A stretch of 8,761 nucleotides of DNA, from positions 1 to 8,761 of the forward strand of contig JAGHAJ010000184.1 of assembly GCA_021161545.1 (NCBI GenBank), written 5' to 3'. The stretch's first letter is position 1. Every line of letters begins with the position of its first letter. Under the pieces are notes generated by a model. It ran no database searches and was not told the origin of the DNA. It saw only the letters and a list, made by a program, of their open reading frames with translations. Of the stretch, positions 1 to 8,761 are shown one piece after another. This stretch comes from Synergistota bacterium. GTDB lineage: Bacteria; Synergistota; JAGHAJ01. Made by a program: the position numbers and the translations under genes.

Positions 1-964
1 CAACAGCAGAGAATTCACCTGGCATATATCTGGGATATCCCAAGGAAAAATTCACAGAGAAGGGAAAACCTGTCTGCCATGCCAAAACGCTACCAGCACC
101 TTTAACATTATAGTGGCCCCTCATCGCCTCTATGGACCACCTTGTGTGAGCATTCAACTCTCTTACAAGGGATATAGCCGCCTCTACATTGTGGTATTTT
201 CCTCCCGTCATAGTTAGCCCCATCCCAAAGAATATCACACCATACCTTGCAGAGAGCATGATGTCCAACATTTCCTTGAGCTTATCCACATGAACCCCAC
301 CAATAAACTCCTCAGAAGGCTGAATCCCCTTAAGTAGCATCCTCAAAGCCGTAAAGATATCGTAATCCCTTCCATATTCCACTCGAACAAAAAGATTTGC
401 AAGTTTGGAAGAGACCGTATCCCTCACATCTACAACTACAAGTCTCCTATCCTTTCTGCCATAAGGTATAAGCATCCCCTTTGCAAATAACGAATATCGT
501 TCATAGTGTCTCTGGTGTGATTCTAAAGGGTTGGAGCCCCAGAAAACTACAACATCTGCCCTGTTTTTTGCTTCCCCCAATGTGCAGGTAGGAATTCCAG
601 ACTGCTGTATGGCCATAGTGGTAGGTCCATGACAGACAGAAGATGTTTGATCTATACTACCACCAATAAGCTCAGCCAACCTTACAGCCTTTCTCTGAGC
701 CTCTATAGAAGTAGAACTAAGTCCATATACAAGGGGATGTTTTGCAGAGGTTAGTATTTTCACCGCCTCCGATACAACATCGTCTATAGAAGCTTTTTTA
801 CCATACACCACTGGTTCTGCAAGGTCTTTTTCATGATTCAAAAACAATATTCTCCCTACACCACAACTACTCTTAACATTAACTATCTTTCCATTATCTA
901 CTTCCACCTCTATATCATCGCACAAACAACCACAAAAAGGACATACAACATTTTCTATCTTCAT
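1..964 (-). CDS. fwdB: Formylmethanofuran dehydrogenase subunit B (FwdB/FmdB), partial, C-terminus beyond window
   Basis: Catalytic Mo/W-bis-pterin subunit that interconverts CO2 plus methanofuran and formylmethanofuran in the cytoplasm. The reading frame is open from an ATG at 964 to the left edge, giving 321 residues; the family is usually about 430, so roughly 110 C-terminal residues are missing. The N-terminus has the 4Fe-4S motif CPFCGCLCDD (C8, C11, C15) with a fourth cysteine at C34. The motif SVCHGPTT places C111 where FwdB has its metal ligand (Cys118 in Methanothermobacter), followed by H112. MRGHYNV (R282) matches the conserved active-site arginine region, and GYPRYMPGEF near residues 309-318 is typical of FwdB. 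Cysteine, not selenocysteine, is used at the metal site. The start overlaps fwdD by 4 bp (ATGA), with GAGGTG 8 nt upstream, so coupled translation is likely. Family assignment is very secure. The physiological direction of the reaction cannot be read from sequence. Confidence 0.95.
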   Translation of the reverse strand, partial: MKIENVVCPFCGCLCDDIEVEVDNGKIVNVKSSCGVGRILFLNHEKDLAEPVVYGKKASIDDVVSEAVKILTSAKHPLVYGLSSTSIEAQRKAVRLAELIGGSIDQTSSVCHGPTTMAIQQSGIPTCTLGEAKNRADVVVFWGSNPLESHQRHYERYSLFAKGMLIPYGRKDRRLVVVDVRDTVSSKLANLFVRVEYGRDYDIFTALRMLLKGIQPSEEFIGGVHVDKLKEMLDIMLSARYGVIFFGMGLTMTGGKYHNVEAAISLVRELNAHTRWSIEAMRGHYNVKGAGSVLAWQTGFPFSVNFSLGYPRYMPGEFSAV

Positions 965-1335
965 AGATTCGACACCTCTTTTAGCACTCGTTTCCAGCTC
1001 CATATTTCATCTTCAGAAGGAACCGCATCAACTTCTATACCTTTTAAATCTGGCATACCTATACCATTGGTGTCCGTAGATGTCAAAAGATTAGCCCAAG
1101 GACCATAAGGCATAAAAACCATTCCTCTTGGAAGTTTACCCTTTAACGCTTTGACAACCACCTTTCCAAATCTGCTGGATATCAAGACTGCCTTTCCCTC
1201 AAATATCTTCCTGTCCTGCATATCCTCCTCGTTAAAGTATGCAACAGCAACAGCATCTTCATATTCTTTTGTAGTCTTACCTATGTGGAGCACTACACCC
1301 TGCTTAGCAGTCCTACCGGTAATCAGTCTATACAC
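961..1335 (-). CDS. fwdD: Formylmethanofuran dehydrogenase subunit D (FwdD/FmdD), molybdopterin dinucleotide-binding domain
   Basis: Small 124-residue subunit corresponding to the molybdopterin-dinucleotide-binding domain that is fused to the catalytic chain in ordinary formate dehydrogenases but is separate in Fwd. It helps hold the pterin cofactor over the FwdB active site. Visible motifs are LITGRTAKQG at residues 4-13, the family signature LPRGMVFMPYGPWAN at 68-82, and a T-rich segment leading to GMPDLKG at 93-99. Length is normal for the family. The start is GTG at 1335, with AAGGAG 9 nt upstream, inside the end of the ATP-grasp gene; the two genes overlap by 8 bp. The downstream end overlaps fwdB by 4 bp. 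The D-B order, with no A, C or other fwd subunit before it in the operon, means the remaining subunits must lie further downstream or elsewhere. Confidence 0.94.
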   Translation of the reverse strand: MYRLITGRTAKQGVVLHIGKTTKEYEDAVAVAYFNEEDMQDRKIFEGKAVLISSRFGKVVVKALKGKLPRGMVFMPYGPWANLLTSTDTNGIGMPDLKGIEVDAVPSEDEIWSWKRVLKEVSNL

Positions 1336-2410
1336 AACCTCTCACTCCTTTCTCATACAACCACCTTTTCTGCTCAACAAGACCGTTTATGACCTCTTCT
1401 ATACTGTCTCCAGAAGAAAAAACAGAACATACAGGACTCCCTTCAGTAATACACTCAGCTTCCATCGGTATATCCCTGAAACCTCTCCTCCACATCTCCT
1501 CACTATTAAAACCACAGAGTCCCTTTTCTGCATAAACTATACCCTTGGCAAAATAGCTCATAGGTCTTGGAATTTCCGACGGAAGGCTGCCCCTGCATGC
1601 TTCTAGATGAATCCTAAAGATGCTAATATTTAAGGCTTTCTCCACCAATTCCATACTCCCCGTATACCTGGGGTTTACCTCTATGACATAAGGAAGATTA
1701 GTACCAGCCTCAATAACTACATCCACACCAAAAACGCCACAAAGACCTATCTCCCGAGTCAATCTCTCAATCCAGTCACTCACCTCATCAACAACTTCAG
1801 AGTCAAGATTTGCAGGGTATACATTACCCGTCCACGCAAATCTCTTTCCACCAAGTAACCTCTCGCCAATAAGTTGAAGAGTAACACCAAAAAGCTTAGA
1901 ATTCCTACTATCAGCAGCAAATAAAAAAGAGAAGCTTTTGCCGTTTATAAACTTCTGAAGATAAAAGCCACTTGGCAATTCACTATCAGTCCAAAAAGAA
2001 ATACCCTTACCTCCTCCACTCTTAAAAGGCTTTTTTAACCATGTTCCACAACTACCAACCAAAGCTGTCCTAACGCCAGGAATCCTTATACCAAGCTCCT
2101 TTGCCAGATTCCACCACTTCTTTCCCGGTCTGACATTCCCAACTACCTCCTTTCCGTTACCAACAACCCTATTCCCCAAGAATCCAAGCATTTCCACATC
2201 GTTTTCAAGCACAGAAGAATAAGCCACTTTATATCCATCATAACGCTGAAGCACAGTAGAAAGGTGATTCCTGCCATCCACAACCTCGACTCTTCCTGTA
2301 AGACGCTGCAAATCCCAGTCCCCAAAAAAGTCTATTGCTATCACATCCTTAATTCCATAGCTAATAGCAGACTCTACTAATGCTCTAACACTGTATCCAA
2401 CCAGCAACAC
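1328..2410 (-). CDS. ATP-grasp superfamily ligase (COG2232-like predicted carboligase)
   Basis: Predicted ATP-dependent carboxylate-amine (or thiol) ligase of 360 residues, cytoplasmic. The N-terminal pre-grasp part reads LLVGYSVRALVESA, followed by DFFGDWDL at 27-34. A glycine-rich nucleotide loop SGGGKG lies at 131-136, a GVFGVDVVIE strand at 225-234, and the Mg/ATP-binding signature EVNPRYTGSME at 244-254; together these are diagnostic of ATP-grasp enzymes. From memory, relatives of this type occur beside H4MPT/methanofuran C1 genes in methanogens and methylotrophs, so adding glutamate or another acid to a C1 carrier is a plausible role, but the substrate is not visible. It is not clearly the known tyramine-glutamate ligase MfnD. 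The start is GTG at 2410, chosen because AGGTGAG lies 8 nt upstream and the family's hydrophobic N-terminus begins there. It is 16 bp from the NifX-like gene and overlaps fwdD by 8 bp. Confidence 0.85.
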   Translation of the reverse strand: MLLVGYSVRALVESAISYGIKDVIAIDFFGDWDLQRLTGRVEVVDGRNHLSTVLQRYDGYKVAYSSVLENDVEMLGFLGNRVVGNGKEVVGNVRPGKKWWNLAKELGIRIPGVRTALVGSCGTWLKKPFKSGGGKGISFWTDSELPSGFYLQKFINGKSFSFLFAADSRNSKLFGVTLQLIGERLLGGKRFAWTGNVYPANLDSEVVDEVSDWIERLTREIGLCGVFGVDVVIEAGTNLPYVIEVNPRYTGSMELVEKALNISIFRIHLEACRGSLPSEIPRPMSYFAKGIVYAEKGLCGFNSEEMWRRGFRDIPMEAECITEGSPVCSVFSSGDSIEEVINGLVEQKRWLYEKGVRGCV

Positions 2411-2426
2411 TGCTATTTCTCACCTA

Positions 2427-2762
2427 TTATCTGCACAGATTTACCTCCATCTGCTTCAACACCATACCTATATCTGCGCCCCTGTCAACATCGTATATAG
2501 ATATCCCCTTATCCAAAACACGCTTTCTCCCTCTTACTCCTATATTAGAAACCACATAGGTATCACAGTCTTGTAAAAAATCTATCACGTAAAAGGTCTT
2601 CCCTCTTGGCATCTCCTTTGCATACGGGTTTAACCTCTTTTCAATCAACTTTAATCTCTCACTATCACACTCATAGATAAGATAAAACTCAGCCATTCCA
2701 AACATCTTTGAGCATACTCTCTTCCCATCATCCGTTGGTATTGCTATCCTTATCTGAACCAC
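2427..2762 (-). CDS. NifX/NafY-like dinitrogenase iron-molybdenum cofactor biosynthesis family protein
   Basis: Small 111-residue protein of the Nitro_FeMo-Co (NifX/NifB C-terminal/NafY) fold, whose members bind or carry metal-sulfur cofactors. The N-terminal strand IRIAIPTDDGKRV (residues 4-16), the FGMAEFYLIYECD segment (21-33) and the late VLDKGISIYDVDRGAD region (82-97) follow the family pattern. Four cysteines (C17, C32, C66, C110) could serve in metal binding, though that is inference. No nitrogenase gene is in view, so the cargo may instead relate to the Mo/W site or iron-sulfur clusters of the neighbouring formylmethanofuran dehydrogenase, or to the Lar-type nickel cofactor. The start is GTG at 2762 inside the end of larB, a 35-bp overlap. 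No later start keeps the conserved first strand, and there is no strong separate ribosome site, which suggests translational coupling to larB. Confidence 0.82.
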   Translation of the reverse strand: MVQIRIAIPTDDGKRVCSKMFGMAEFYLIYECDSERLKLIEKRLNPYAKEMPRGKTFYVIDFLQDCDTYVVSNIGVRGRKRVLDKGISIYDVDRGADIGMVLKQMEVNLCR

Positions 2763-3516
2763 CCCTGTAGGCCAAAGAGTTTATCATATGAGCCAGCACA
2801 CCCGCACCAAAACCATTGTCTATGTTAACAACACCAATACCGGGTACGCAGGTGTTCAGCATAGCAAGCAGTGAAGAGAGACCACTAAAGTGTGAACCAT
2901 ATCCGACACTCGTAGGCACAGCTATAACAGGTGAAGATATCAGTCCTGCTACTACTGTAACCAGAGCACCTTCCATACCTGCCACAGCAACAACCACATT
3001 CGATTTCCTTAAGGTTTCAAGATGGGGAAATAGCCTGTGAATACCAGCAACCCCCACATCGTATATCCTAATAACTTCATTTCCTAAAATCTCTGCAATA
3101 ACGGCTGCCTCTTCTGCAACTCTGATGTCAGAAGTACCCGCAGTAACTACCGCTATACCCTTTCTTGGCTTACTGATTTTTCTCCTAACAGATGCTGCTA
3201 TCTGAGCCTCTCGATAATAAATGATGTCAGAAATTTCCTGTCTGATGACATCAAATGTCTCATCATCAACATGCGTGAACACCACATTACCAGTAGAGGT
3301 AGAGAGTGCCTTTGCAATTCCTCTCACGTGTTCCTTTGCCTTTCCCTTACAAAACACTACTTCATCTATGCCGCGTCTAAACGGCCTGTGAGTATCAAGC
3401 CTTGCAAAACCTAAGTCAATATAGGGAAAGTCCCTTAATGCATTTAAAACCTCTTCCTTAGAAACTCTTCCCTGTGAAAAGTTATCCAGAAGATCCTCTA
3501 AAGCTCTCTTATCCAT
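2728..3516 (-). CDS. larB: LarB, nickel-pincer cofactor biosynthesis (nicotinic acid adenine dinucleotide carboxylase/hydrolase)
   Basis: First enzyme of nickel-pincer nucleotide synthesis: it carboxylates the pyridine ring of nicotinic acid adenine dinucleotide and hydrolyses the phosphoanhydride to give pyridinium-3,5-dicarboxylate mononucleotide. The 262-residue protein has the typical LDTHRPFRRGIDEVVF segment (residues 40-55), the PurE-like core IAVVTAGTSDIRVAEEA (121-137), VVAGMEGAL (177-185), and the LNTCVPGIGVVNIDNGFGAG motif (220-239). C223 lies where Lactiplantibacillus LarB has its catalytic Cys221. Length is close to the usual 246-260. The C-terminus from about residue 251 is a polar tail encoded in the 35-bp overlap with the NifX-like gene. 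The ATG start overlaps the symporter stop by 8 bp (ATGGATAA). Identification is very secure. LarE, the sulfur-inserting partner, is not in this window. Confidence 0.95.
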   Translation of the reverse strand: MDKRALEDLLDNFSQGRVSKEEVLNALRDFPYIDLGFARLDTHRPFRRGIDEVVFCKGKAKEHVRGIAKALSTSTGNVVFTHVDDETFDVIRQEISDIIYYREAQIAASVRRKISKPRKGIAVVTAGTSDIRVAEEAAVIAEILGNEVIRIYDVGVAGIHRLFPHLETLRKSNVVVAVAGMEGALVTVVAGLISSPVIAVPTSVGYGSHFSGLSSLLAMLNTCVPGIGVVNIDNGFGAGVLAHMINSLAYRGGSDKDSNTNG

Positions 3517-4873
3517 TAGTATCTACGCCCCTTTGCAACCCTCTTAAACCATACACCACAAACCACGAAACAGCAGAAGCAAGAAGACCATACATTACAG
3601 AAAGCGATACATCTCCCCAATCAAATGCCACCCAAAGCACAACAGTTGTTCCTCCTCCTACCATACTCCCTATAGCTGGCAAGCTATACAGCCTCGCATC
3701 CCTTACATAAAAGGCCACAACAAGTGGAATAAGACTACTTGAAACAAACAAAGAGAAAGCAAACATAGCTGCGTCTAATATATTCTTAAAAAGTAAAGAT
3801 GCAAACAGTGCAACAACAGCAGAGATTATAGCACCAACCTTCGCATACAAAACCTCCTTAGGCATATATCTTCTCACTGGCCTGAGTATATCGTGAGCAA
3901 TAATACCACCTGCAATAAGCAGATAGCTATCCGCCGTTGACATTATTGCAGATAATACAGCCAAACCAACAAAATCTCTCACTCCCTTGGGCAAAACAGC
4001 ATTCACTACTCTCGGAAAAACCGCATCAGGAACTATATGCCTACCAAACAACGCTATACCAGCAATGCCAACTATCAGTGCTACAAACGTCATCACGGAA
4101 TCTACCAATCCAACTGTTGCTACACCAATTCTCGCTACATCAGGCGATCTTGCCGCATTGCACCTTTGATAGAAGGATGGATTTGCCCAAAAGGGAAAGG
4201 TAAATATTATGAAAAACGAAATTATATCGCTGAAACCAAACGCACTTGGATAGCGTAGTGCTATATCCTCTATACGAGCAATCCCTCCAGTTGCCTTTAA
4301 CGTAAACAAGACCAAAACAGCTAAACCTACAATCAAAAAGAAGAACTGCAGAATATCAGTTTCCACAACCTTCTTGAACCCACCTAATAATGTATAGATG
4401 AGAGCAACTCCAAGTACAAGAGAGGCTCCAGCAACAAACGGCGTACCAACCATGATATGCATTATGTAGCCTGCTGCCATTACATTTGTTGCTATCAGGG
4501 TTATACTGTACAGCAATGTAAACATTGACGAAACAACGGAAATACCTGCTCCATATGCCTTTTCGATGACACCACCAATGGTAAATCCCTCTTTCATCTG
4601 GTTAACCCTTGCAGCAAACAGCAAAGAGAAAGTGTAAACTCCAACAGATGTAGGTATAGCTATCCAGAGTGCATCGTACCCAAACATGTAGCAATAACCA
4701 CTAAAGCCCAGTATTATAGCTGAATCCACCCATGTTGACATTAGTGTCAGAGATGTTTCAAAGAGCCCCAGCTTGCCCCCAGTAAGGAAAAAACTTTTAA
4801 ATGTCTGTTGACTCCTAAGCTTCCAGAAGCCTATTAGCGATAGGAGACCGAGGTAGACAGCAACTACCGTCAC
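3509..4873 (-). CDS. Sodium:solute symporter (SSS family), substrate unknown
   Basis: Integral membrane transporter of 454 residues that would import a small solute with Na+. Hydrophobic segments run through the whole chain, consistent with about 12-13 helices. Family marks are LTGGKLG at residues 30-36 (the SSS loop after helix 1), GGFKKVVETDILQFFFLIVG at 164-183 (family pattern GGfkaV..TD..Q), and VLSAIMSTADSYLL at 306-319, where A309, S312 and T313 correspond to the Na2 sodium site region. The start is GTG at 4873: an in-frame TGA lies four codons upstream, and a GGAGGGGAG purine run sits about 12 nt before. It follows the 35-residue membrane peptide by 5 bp and overlaps larB by 8 bp. The operon and the diacid-type regulator suggest an organic acid substrate such as a hydroxy acid, but the protein itself does not show this. 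Confidence 0.92.
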   Translation of the reverse strand: MTVVAVYLGLLSLIGFWKLRSQQTFKSFFLTGGKLGLFETSLTLMSTWVDSAIILGFSGYCYMFGYDALWIAIPTSVGVYTFSLLFAARVNQMKEGFTIGGVIEKAYGAGISVVSSMFTLLYSITLIATNVMAAGYIMHIMVGTPFVAGASLVLGVALIYTLLGGFKKVVETDILQFFFLIVGLAVLVLFTLKATGGIARIEDIALRYPSAFGFSDIISFFIIFTFPFWANPSFYQRCNAARSPDVARIGVATVGLVDSVMTFVALIVGIAGIALFGRHIVPDAVFPRVVNAVLPKGVRDFVGLAVLSAIMSTADSYLLIAGGIIAHDILRPVRRYMPKEVLYAKVGAIISAVVALFASLLFKNILDAAMFAFSLFVSSSLIPLVVAFYVRDARLYSLPAIGSMVGGGTTVVLWVAFDWGDVSLSVMYGLLASAVSWFVVYGLRGLQRGVDTNG

Positions 4874-4989: not shown

Positions 4990-5484
4990 CTATACCCACT
5001 CCTTACTGAGAGAAAGCTCTATCCCATTTAGCTTTATGGTCCAACACCTCTCATCCGAAAATGAAAATCCCTCTACTACCTTTTTAATAACCTTAACTGG
5101 TATAAACAGTTCTTTTGATACTCGCCGTAAATCCTCGTATTCCGCCTTCACATGCTTACCACTTCCCCTGTGAATAATCTTCACGGGGATCACAAATTCT
5201 ACCTCATTGGTCCTCAAATATACCTTGTTCATCTCATAATAAAGAGATATATGCCTCGTTTCCAATACTCTTACCCCTATTGTCCCCATCTCAAGTGCAA
5301 GGTAATCAATAATGTCATCCAAATAGCTCTCCTCCACATCGACAAAGAGAAGTATCCCATTTCTTCCCTTTTTGTTTACGGAGTGTACATAGTAGGCATT
5401 CTTTGCACCCTTATCGAGGAGGTTTTGAATGTGGAGAGGTAAAAGTTCCATCTCTATATCATCTAAATTCAACACAAGGAGCAT
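4990..5484 (-). CDS. larC2: Stand-alone LarC C-terminal domain (LarC2-like, nickel insertion / CTP-binding half)
   Basis: 164-residue protein matching only the C-terminal part of LarC (former DUF111), the CTP-dependent nickel insertase that finishes the nickel-pincer cofactor. Recognisable elements are LNLDDIEMELL at residues 5-15 (LarC: N-[IV]-DDM-x-PE), VNKKGRNGILLFV at 36-48, MGTIGVRVLETR at 66-77, and VKAEYEDLRRVSKE at 112-125. About 25 extra C-terminal residues follow. The LarC N-terminal half, with its GDM and histidine-rich nickel region, is absent: the gene upstream is unrelated and the 52-bp gap has no room for it. In Lactiplantibacillus, larC1 and larC2 are joined by programmed frameshifting, but that is not the arrangement here. 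ATG start at 5484; the only purine-rich site is GGGGG 6 nt upstream, so translation may be modest. LarC1 may be elsewhere in the genome, or this domain has its own job. Confidence 0.85.
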   Translation of the reverse strand: MLLVLNLDDIEMELLPLHIQNLLDKGAKNAYYVHSVNKKGRNGILLFVDVEESYLDDIIDYLALEMGTIGVRVLETRHISLYYEMNKVYLRTNEVEFVIPVKIIHRGSGKHVKAEYEDLRRVSKELFIPVKVIKKVVEGFSFSDERCWTIKLNGIELSLSKEWV

Positions 5485-5501: not shown

Positions 5502-5529
5502 CCGGACAGGGAGATATCTCCCTGTCCGG
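5502..5529 (-). other. Perfect 28-bp palindrome / intercistronic hairpin
   Basis: Two exact 14-nt arms (CCGGACAGGGAGAT and its complement) meet at a central GATATC with no spacer. The RNA would form a very stable, GC-rich hairpin of about 12 bp with a 4-nt loop. It starts 7 nt after the stop of the 592-residue gene and ends 17 nt before the LarC-domain start codon. No T-run follows on either strand, so it is not a standard intrinsic terminator. A role as an mRNA stabiliser or processing barrier that makes the first gene more abundant than the rest is the simplest reading (inference). A dimeric-protein binding site is the alternative. Confidence 0.85.
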
Positions 5530-5536
5530 GAAGTAA

Positions 5537-7315
5537 CTACATAGCTTTCATAATCTCAACAGCCAGCTTTGCAACCTTCCGTGCTGCATCTTTTGCACCA
5601 GGGATAGCACCAGTAATGTATGCACCATTTTCTGCCAGTTTACCTGCATCCTTCCAGTTATATTTACCCATAGCAGCAGCAACAGCAGCAGGAACCGTCA
5701 CATTTATTATAGTGTGACCAGAATACTGCAACTCCTGAGCTACACCTGCCGCGATACCTATCGGCAACGCCCAATCCTCAGAGAGCTCACCTCTTGCTAT
5801 AGCTGGAGAAGCCTTGTGAGATAGTCCTTCTATCTTATAGGGCTTACCATCTACCTTGACTTCCATGTCGATATCGGAGTCAAATCCCCAATACTGCTTC
5901 ACAAACGGGTGATGTCTCCTTGCCGCACCAGCAAGTTTCAGAAACTTTACCTCTATCTTCTTACCCATCACTGCAGTCAAAAGTTCGGATGCCTTCTTCT
6001 CCACAAAAGCCTGCCTTTCTGCATCAAATGTCTTGGAGACTTCCTCCAATGGCTTACCTTCTTTGAGCATCTGGTAAGCCCTCTCTGCCCTCTTGGAAAT
6101 GCCGGCAGTCCTTGTAGGCTCACTTGCAAATATAAGCGTATCCGTTACAAGCCCTCTCTTAATCTGTTCGGTCTTCCTCGCCACTGTATTTATCGAAATC
6201 GTTGCCATTTCGGGGTCAAACCACTGATCCTGTTTAAGCTTACGAATAACCTCTGCAGCAGCTTCAATGTCTCCTTTGTTGTCTATAAGCAAGCACATTG
6301 CTACAACAGCATCACATGTTACATGGCCCAAAGGTGGGTTGACTGGACCACCAGAGAAGCCCGCACCATAGAATATAGCATTATCAAGCGCTGCCATAAT
6401 CTCATTGAACGACATCATACCCACAACAGTGGGAGCACCTATGTCCTTAAACAGGAGAGCCAAGTCTCCTATGAGATGCGCAGTATCAAACTCCCTATCC
6501 GTTCCCCTTATCTTCATCTTTTCAGGCAAACCAGCAGTCTCAGCAGCAGATTTACCTGCAAGATAAGAAGTAGTATCAACAAAGAACTCTCCCAGTTTCT
6601 CGTCTATAAACCCATCAGAATGCAATATTTCCATCGTCGCAGCTGCACCCAATACAGCAGAAATAAATGGACTCGGCAGCAATCCTGCACCGCTATAAGC
6701 ATTCATCATAGCCTCAGTTGCTATCTTTGCACCGTTGGTCGCAATTTCAGGGAATACGATATCCTCACCTAACACATTGTGCCCATAAATGGCACCACCA
6801 GCAAGGAATGGGGGAAGTTTCTTACCCACAATACTCGTAAGTTTCCCATTCTCCATCGCCTCATAAATTGCCTTGACAGCGGCAAACCCTGAAACCCTGT
6901 TTGAAAGCTTCGGTGTTGGTATAGCAGCTACACCAGCCCTGTCTGCCCCAGCTATCATTCTTGCCAATGCACCTATCTTTCTGTTCCCAGCAGGGACACC
7001 AGCCCTCGCATTTGTACCTGCCATATACATCAGAGATGCTACTATAAGAGCAGCATTAGCACTATCAGCACCACCAAGCTTTGCAGTAGCTATCGCCTTT
7101 TTCATTATATCTTCCACAGGAAGCTCCGAAACACTGGCATCACTAAGTTTATAATCCAAACCCTTAAGGATCTCCTCAGTTATGACATTCGCTGCTGCAA
7201 TGGTAGCCAAATTCAACATTCCATGCCCCTTAACCAACGCCTCCAACCTATCATTCGTCACATAATCCGGTTCTGCAGTAGCTGCCATGACAGCAGCCAT
7301 AACCTCTTTCTCCAT
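5537..7315 (-). CDS. Unrecognised 592-residue soluble protein, first gene of the operon
   Basis: I do not recognise this family. It is a full-length soluble protein rich in alanine and glycine, with no signal peptide or clear membrane helix. Likely conserved stretches include MAGTNARAGVPAGNRK (residues 98-113), IPTPKLSNRVSGFAAVKAIYE (132-152), GGAIYGHNVLGEDIVFPEI (173-191), GAGLLPSPFISAVLG (209-223), GFSGGPVNPPLGHVTCD (319-335), RRHHPFVKQYWGF (466-478) and YSGHTIINV (531-539). Histidines H31, H179, H232, H280, H331, H468, H469, H500 and H534 and cysteines C334 and C341 are candidate ligands. It is not LarA and shows none of the usual Lar, Fwd or transporter motifs. ATG start at 7315 with AAGGAGG 7 nt upstream, behind a good promoter and followed by a strong hairpin, so high expression is likely. 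Its place ahead of lar genes, a symporter and fwd genes suggests the key catabolic enzyme of the module (inference). Confidence 0.9.
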   Translation of the reverse strand: MEKEVMAAVMAATAEPDYVTNDRLEALVKGHGMLNLATIAAANVITEEILKGLDYKLSDASVSELPVEDIMKKAIATAKLGGADSANAALIVASLMYMAGTNARAGVPAGNRKIGALARMIAGADRAGVAAIPTPKLSNRVSGFAAVKAIYEAMENGKLTSIVGKKLPPFLAGGAIYGHNVLGEDIVFPEIATNGAKIATEAMMNAYSGAGLLPSPFISAVLGAAATMEILHSDGFIDEKLGEFFVDTTSYLAGKSAAETAGLPEKMKIRGTDREFDTAHLIGDLALLFKDIGAPTVVGMMSFNEIMAALDNAIFYGAGFSGGPVNPPLGHVTCDAVVAMCLLIDNKGDIEAAAEVIRKLKQDQWFDPEMATISINTVARKTEQIKRGLVTDTLIFASEPTRTAGISKRAERAYQMLKEGKPLEEVSKTFDAERQAFVEKKASELLTAVMGKKIEVKFLKLAGAARRHHPFVKQYWGFDSDIDMEVKVDGKPYKIEGLSHKASPAIARGELSEDWALPIGIAAGVAQELQYSGHTIINVTVPAAVAAAMGKYNWKDAGKLAENGAYITGAIPGAKDAARKVAKLAVEIMKAM

Positions 7316-7588: not shown

Positions 7589-8761
7589 TTATTGTGCGTA
7601 AAGCACATCACCCATAGAGACAACCTGAAGAGCTAACCAGAGGTAAAATGCATCTATGGGGTTGTGAGGATCGAGCCCTGTGAGCCTTTTTATGCGATCC
7701 AACCTGTACAAAAGTGTATTTTTGTGTATAAAGAGCTTCTTAGCAGCAGAAGAAGCATTCATACCGCAGCTTAAGTATGTTTTTAAGGTATGCAGTATTT
7801 CCTTTCTCATCTTGCTTTGATTTATATTTCCTATCGCATGAGATGCAAAACTCCGCCTCTCGTCTTCCCCTGAACTTCTTATAAGGTTACCCAGAAGCAC
7901 TATGGGTTCATCATAAAAGAAGACATTTTTACCCGCAAACTCAGAAAGTAAGACTCCCACTTCCAATGCTCTAACTGCCTCTCTGAAAGACTTCTTCAAC
8001 ATAGAAATAGAATGAGCACAGGGTCCTATCCCCAAAAAAACATCTTCTTTTATCTCCTCCTTCAAAACAGAGGAAAGCCTAAAGCTCCACTCTATTTTCC
8101 TGTTTTCTGCTTCCTCCTCAGAATTGTACGTGCTCCCTACCTTAAATATAGCAAACAATCCCCCACTTATATTAGTTATTATGTCCTGATCACCTATCTG
8201 TGGGATTTTCTTACATGTCGACAAAACCTTTTCTCTGACATCATATCTCACCATCCCACCAGAAACGCTCTTCTCCATAACACCTATAGCACTTCCAATC
8301 ACTGCGCCATACTTGGGGATACCCAGTGCAATTGCAAATCTCGGCAAAGACGGATCATACCCTAACACACTCAAATAGGAGGCCATATCTTCCCAATCAA
8401 AGCTATCTTTCTTCAGCAAACTTCCAACAAAGCTACTCATAGCATGTGTTTTTAAACTACCAACCGTTTCTATAAACCGTCTATGGAGTAGCAATTCTAT
8501 TGTCACAGAAGTAATTCTACCAATATCCCTTACATGTCTGCCCCTACCCGTTATCCAGAGCACACCTATAACTCTATCACCCAGAAATATCGGAAAATTA
8601 GTACCTCCAACACCATCTTCAGTATCAACTTCTGTTATCTTACCCTCATTTATAGTAGCAATAGCTTCCTTGTAGCTTTTGCCAACCCACTGAGGGTCAC
8701 TACTACCAACTACGATACCCCTATCATCTGTGATGCTTATATCCCGTCCTATCACAGGACA
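7589..8761 (-). CDS. CdaR/PucR-family transcriptional regulator (sugar-diacid recognition type), partial at N-terminus
   Basis: DNA-binding regulator that senses a small organic acid, probably of the adjacent operon. The frame is open to the right edge (it reads CPVIGRDISI), so the GTG at 8755 is probably an internal valine and about 15-20 N-terminal residues are missing. Counting from that codon, residues 1-100 match the diacid-recognition domain (DISITDDRGIVVGSSDPQWVG, then GGTNFPIFLGDRVIGVLWITG). A GGDEF-like middle domain covers about 139-275, and a PucR-type helix-turn-helix lies at 322-375 with ASSAAKKLFIHKNTLLYRLD followed by RIKRLTGLDP. Relatives respond to glucarate, glycerate or similar acids. 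It reads in the same direction as the operon, and its stop lies about 18 bp before the candidate operator, so autoregulation together with control of the operon is plausible. No convincing terminator follows. Confidence 0.9.
   Translation of the reverse strand, partial: CPVIGRDISITDDRGIVVGSSDPQWVGKSYKEAIATINEGKITEVDTEDGVGGTNFPIFLGDRVIGVLWITGRGRHVRDIGRITSVTIELLLHRRFIETVGSLKTHAMSSFVGSLLKKDSFDWEDMASYLSVLGYDPSLPRFAIALGIPKYGAVIGSAIGVMEKSVSGGMVRYDVREKVLSTCKKIPQIGDQDIITNISGGLFAIFKVGSTYNSEEEAENRKIEWSFRLSSVLKEEIKEDVFLGIGPCAHSISMLKKSFREAVRALEVGVLLSEFAGKNVFFYDEPIVLLGNLIRSSGEDERRSFASHAIGNINQSKMRKEILHTLKTYLSCGMNASSAAKKLFIHKNTLLYRLDRIKRLTGLDPHNPIDAFYLWLALQVVSMGDVLYAQ

Follow-up and report, generated by a model that had tools for sequence, protein, structure and literature searches.

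A protein family without recognised relatives, always encoded beside a LarC2-domain gene, is a candidate for a second kind of nickel-pincer nucleotide protein

Introduction

The organic part of the nickel-pincer nucleotide (NPN) is the target of LarB and LarE, whereas LarC2, the C-terminal domain of LarC, belongs to the CTP-dependent nickel insertase. To our knowledge, LarA is the only protein family that uses this cofactor. LarA binds NPN covalently, presumably on Lys184, and has two catalytic histidines (PMC11796402, PMC12611868). About 15% of genomes carry larB/larC/larE without larA, and non-LarA NPN proteins have been predicted (PMC11796402). A second system that bears on the locus described here is the bacterial tetrahydromethanopterin (H4MPT)/methanofuran one-carbon (C1) module (fwd, ftr, mch, mtd); archaeal-type fwd, mch and ftr genes have been noted for Acetomicrobium hydrogeniformans (PMC6025917).

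Here we describe a gene, referred to as X, on contig JAGHAJ010000184.1 of a Synergistota bacterium. The whole stretch analysed, 8,761 nt, is called the window. X encodes a protein of an unrecognised family that is a candidate nickel-pincer-dependent protein. It resembles LarA in being encoded with larB, larC and larE and in taking the larA position in rhizobial operons, but differs from it in size (592 versus about 425 residues), in lacking any detectable sequence or profile similarity, and in being paired with an additional LarC2 protein, a partner which is absent from the larA operons examined.

Results

All genes of the window lie on the minus strand, in the order cdaR-type regulator, X, larC2′, sodium:solute symporter, larB, nifX-like, ATP-grasp, fwdD-like and fwdB. 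The gene of the CdaR-type sugar-diacid regulator (7589..8755; PF05651, PF17853, PF13556) is separated by 273 bp from X (5537..7315), and between X and larC2′ lies a 28-nt perfect palindrome without a T-run (5502..5529, minus strand; fold z-score −3.8 on 61 nt), a hairpin that is possibly an mRNA-stability or attenuation element. The product of larC2′ (4990..5484) is a stand-alone LarC C-terminal domain (NF052512, 67.8 bits, cut-off 50; PF01969 positions 248-374). It is followed by a symporter of the SSF family (3509..4873; PF00474), by larB for the pyridinium carboxylase/hydrolase of NPN synthesis (2728..3516; NF033503, 275.9 bits, cut-off 175), and by genes for a NifX/NifB-type Fe-Mo cofactor domain protein (2427..2762; PF02579) and an ATP-grasp protein which is weakly MfnD-like (1328..2410; PF02655; 32 bits with the MfnD model, far under its cut-off of 400). 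The last two genes encode a FwdD-like molybdopterin-dinucleotide-binding subunit (961..1335; PF01568; NF042908, 107 bits, under the cut-off of 175) and subunit B of formylmethanofuran dehydrogenase, FwdB, which is cut by the contig end (2..1003; TIGR03129, 419 bits, cut-off 327.8). An Rfam search of the loci gave no matches, riboswitches for nickel or cobalamin included.

The initial annotation had placed X at the head of an operon of pincer-synthesis and fwd genes. Its fwd part is borne out by fwdB and the fwdD-like gene downstream on the same strand. Of the lar part, larB is indeed downstream on the same strand, but the second gene is a lone LarC2 and not a whole larC; a full larC is found on another contig of this genome, within an mtd-larC-citG-rimK-mch-fwdC-ftr-fwdA operon. 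Likewise, LarA is absent from the window as noted then, but the genome has five LarA-type genes on other contigs. Contig C32 of the same genome also encodes a LarC N-terminal-type domain (Ni_insertion, 2-205) fused to a TrmO tRNA methyltransferase domain (L085:1866-3002).

The reading frame of X is intact over all 592 codons, in agreement with its annotation as a full-length protein, and starts with ATG behind a strong ribosome-binding site (AGAAGGAGGGGTTTTA-ATG). The closest homologue, in genome G006, is 81% identical, and the two genes differ at 90/46/345 sites of the three codon positions, with 267 synonymous versus 113 changed codons. Because these differences fall mostly at third positions, X is under purifying selection. 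The protein has no transmembrane segment (maximum Kyte-Doolittle value 1.45) and no internal repeat, and with nine histidines among 592 residues (1.5%) it is not the histidine-rich protein it had been taken for.

No model of Pfam or NCBIfam matches X at E<=1, and no PDB entry matches it by sequence. Profile matches in the PDB (the designed repeat 7udk over 34 residues, 4h7l, ribosomal S24 and myosin light chain) were rejected as chance or compositional because they are short and mutually unrelated. The Lar_N domain (PF09861) was not detected in any of 12 X homologues, while the same model does pick up genuine LarA genes at other loci of the X-bearing genomes. In line with this, hhalign comparison of the X profile with LarA gave a probability of 0.1% (E 0.46), that is, no detectable similarity, and probabilities were below 1% throughout for DUF2193, MtrH, URO-D, LarB, LarC, LarE, Mch, Ftr, FwdA/B/C, Mtd, CitG, RACo and a corrinoid protein. 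On these values we rejected X as a paralogue of DUF2193 or of any other tested neighbour. A scan of viral contigs found no relatives, and a literature search found no paper naming the family. The earlier statement that X fits no known family thus stands after the profile searches against LarA and Pfam proposed with it, in which no characterised family matched.

Full-length X is present in 12 of 185 Synergistota genomes, in 20 of the 237 genomes from the archaeal class to which a Methanosarcinaceae MAG belongs (in one of them, G290, the gene is in two pieces), on five rhizobial plasmids among 72,556 plasmids, and in two genomes, G592 and G445, of another bacterial family, f36. Apart from the G006 protein, homologues are 44-55% identical to the window protein over nearly the whole length. 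In a maximum-likelihood tree the family falls into two clades, A with the archaea and most Synergistota (the window protein among them) and B with the rhizobia, G118, G132 and f36. Three histidines (H30, H178, H330) and five lysines (K112, K135, K265, K289, K380) are invariant in 29 homologues, as are the segments GxPxGNRKxG, GHxxLGED and KDxGxP. The conservation map that the initial annotation had called for thus leaves three histidines and five lysines, but not a single cysteine. All four motifs quoted in that annotation occur in X, but RRHHPF is not a family motif, as H467 is variable and H468 is missing from the Rhizobium-type clade.

The most constant feature of X loci is the partner gene. 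Every one of the 38 contexts that could be assessed has a LarC2-domain gene immediately adjoining X (11 Synergistota, 20 archaea, five rhizobial plasmids and two f36 genomes). In 37 of them it is stand-alone, although the open reading frame in L115 is short, and in one (G387) it is a whole LarC. PDB matches of larC2′ are the C-terminal domain of LarC (12bi) and MK0293 (3c19), and the core residues common to full LarC (D, KKxR, GxR, E) are kept. Thus larC2′ corresponds to the LarC2 domain of the LarC nickel-insertion cyclometallase (NF052512), but unlike LarC itself it stands alone, accompanies a full LarC in most genomes, and is tied to X.

Other lar genes are also frequent near X, and 26 of the 38 contexts have larB no more than about 7 kb away. 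The initial annotation had named homologues that usually occur without lar genes as an argument against a cofactor link; instead, larB was found in all 32 X genomes tested, larE in 35 of 35 and larC in 34 of 35 (G010 counted in), the exception being the fragmented draft G132. However, larB scores above its cut-off in 165 of the 185 Synergistota and 209 of the 237 genomes of the archaeal class, and larE is likewise very common in both phyla. Genome-level co-occurrence is therefore weak by itself, and was judged uninformative when taken alone for larB, so that it is adjacency that carries weight. Moreover, almost all whole-sequence X genomes also carry LarA (only G269 had no match), and the biosynthetic genes would be needed there regardless, which speaks against an NPN-based reading of X to the extent that retention of larBCE cannot be credited to X alone. 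Within the archaeal class of G185 (237 genomes), X is present in only 20 genomes, far fewer than have larB; in most of these archaea a pincer-type cofactor is probably made but put to a use that does not involve X.

On rhizobial plasmids X and larA occupy equivalent positions. Plasmid pRlX3 of R. ruizarguesonis carries the order larA-larC-larE-larB. Plasmids of R. tropici and of Rhizobium CCGE531 and CCGE532 carry X-larC2′-larC-larE-larB followed by a nickel transporter of the HoxN/NixA type, and the CB3090 and Ciceribacter plasmids show X-larC2′-larC-larE-larB in the same order by tblastn. The larC, larE and larB genes are 48-53% identical between the two types of operon. On five plasmids, X-larC2′ thus sits exactly where a relative's operon has larA. 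Among the 72,556 plasmids, 15 carry LarA, five carry X and none carries both, and no Lar_N domain was found on the two X plasmids that were searched whole. Across the rhizobial X plasmids X is 94% identical, versus 71-88% for larC2′, larC, larE and larB. In pRtrCIAT899b of R. tropici an in-frame TAA splits larE, which is annotated as two hypothetical proteins (L009:18565-19371); larE of CCGE531 has the same split annotation, and the gene is intact in CCGE532 and Ciceribacter.

These arrangements bear on two alternatives to X as an NPN-using protein. The first is that X and LarC2′ form a cofactor-maturation pair which modifies or stores NPN, or a derivative of it, or hands it over to the LarA-type enzymes that the same genome encodes at other loci. 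The near-universal presence of LarA in whole-sequence X genomes would suit such a role, as would the fact that LarC2′ is itself a biosynthetic domain with the LarC core residues retained. We nevertheless regard it as unlikely: X is missing from most relatives that have LarB, so LarA can do without it; the rhizobial X fills the larA slot with no larA on the same replicon; and X is both large, at 592 residues, and the most conserved gene of its rhizobial cluster. The second alternative, that NPN is not used and that nickel, or some other ligand, is bound directly by X, with LarC2′ as the nickel chaperone of X, could draw on the HoxN/NixA transporter of the rhizobial clusters and on the invariant histidines, but we consider it very improbable, given that larB and larE cluster with X as well (L018, L064 and the rhizobial plasmids) and that X has no invariant cysteines.

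Natural losses give a further view of the pair. The Acetomicrobium genome G010 retains a 55-residue scrap of X and has lost larC2′, while larB, larC, larE and LarA are kept. In G020 both X and larC2′ have been lost at the locus, where larB-larC1 is kept, and this persistence without X argues against X being the user of the cofactor. G004 and G006 have the genes fwdA-fwdB-fwdD-ATP-grasp-DUF2193-symporter-cdaR in common; in the otherwise collinear G004 cluster the DUF2193-symporter interval contains no X, larC2′ or larB, and the citG-mtd interval contains no larC. As these three patterns show, X and larC2′ are present or absent as a pair, which in G004 is missing along with the clustered larB and larC. 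The presence of the symporter in the X-free G004 cluster also indicates that it belongs with the C1 genes rather than with X. A substrate of X guessed from the symporter and the CdaR regulator was dropped, since both stay in this cluster.

The window fwdB and fwdD-like genes belong to the H4MPT/methanofuran C1 module, which most X-positive Synergistota possess. Methenyl-H4MPT cyclohydrolase (Mch) is encoded in 10 of 12 X-positive Synergistota versus 13 of 173 others (Fisher P 6.5e-9, not corrected for shared descent), and X is located with fwd/ftr/mch-type genes in six Synergistota. In f36 (L114:9403-18158 and L115:2920-11284, from G592 and G445), the clusters comprise a TetR regulator, larC2′, X, an MtaA-like URO-D protein, RACo, an MtrH-like methyltransferase and a second MtaA-like protein, to which G445 adds an MtbC-like corrinoid protein; they are possibly a methyltransferase system that includes X. 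The fwd clusters of several Synergistota (G004, G006, G161, G162) also contain DUF2193 (L017:4316-5854), a family which is archaeal according to Pfam.

A C1 role, as suggested in the initial annotation, is therefore plausible for some members of the family, as X tracks the methanopterin module in Synergistota and precedes corrinoid methyltransferase genes in f36. It can at most be a property of part of the family, because the module exists without X (G004, G008, G010, G020 and others), X also occurs without the module, and no C1 genes lie at the X locus on the rhizobial plasmids or in G118. Thus the suggestion fits the neighbourhood and phyletic pattern of one clade and the f36 cluster, but not the rhizobial members. 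The same observations could be read as X being a C1 enzyme, acting on methanopterin/methanofuran or corrinoid methyl groups without a pincer cofactor, whose lar neighbours reflect a shared regulon or a transferred block. The fwd/ftr/mch-type neighbours, the tracking of Mch and the f36 gene order are what this explanation would lead one to expect. It seems improbable to us, however, since on the rhizobial plasmids and in G118 X has LarC2′ beside it but no C1 genes at the locus, Mch-positive genomes such as G004, G008 and G010 do without X, and the X-LarC2′ pair is the sole constant across all lineages.

Discussion

Taken together, X probably founds an uncharacterised family that stands in for LarA, to which it is not homologous, as a user of the NPN produced by LarB, LarE and LarC. 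This keeps the NPN-enzyme idea of the initial annotation but exchanges its grounds: the arguments from histidine richness and from the absence of LarA fail, while the constant LarC2 neighbour, the larA slot and the co-occurrence with lar genes speak for it. On the other side, AlphaFold models of two X sequences (window and L008) reached pLDDT values of 40 and 41.7, too low for a fold in which an NPN pocket could be recognised. Because X travels with NPN-synthesis genes and replaces LarA in some operons, it is in our view a strong candidate, open to direct testing, for a nickel-pincer protein of a second kind that is unrelated to LarA.

In the mechanism that we propose, LarC2′ would be a dedicated partner of X that carries out, or assists, the final CTP-dependent step, in which nickel is inserted or handed over. 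Like LarA, X is presumed to be an NPN user, and by analogy its invariant residues could serve cofactor and acid/base roles: NPN may be held, perhaps covalently, via one of the five invariant lysines, and H30, H178 and H330 may provide acid/base catalysis while a small substrate undergoes proton-coupled hydride transfer. Either the compound consumed or the one produced by X would probably link up with pterin-bound one-carbon metabolism in the archaeal/Synergistota clade.

A more specific version can be imagined by analogy with molybdopterin, which exists in mono- and dinucleotide forms. LarC2 might keep or install a cytidinylylated (dinucleotide) cofactor in this second, unrelated pincer family, unlike the NPN of LarA, and in methanogens and Synergistota X might catalyse a new reaction that feeds or draws on pterin-bound C1 units. 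We consider this combination a long shot.

X is thus a concrete candidate for a predicted, undiscovered NPN protein, albeit in lineages that mostly keep LarA. Methanosarcina, in which it occurs, is genetically tractable, and the rhizobial plasmids that carry it have the full biosynthetic operon as well. If X does use the cofactor, it would provide a second scaffold for the organometallic NPN, and the reaction catalysed would probably be new and might belong to one-carbon metabolism.
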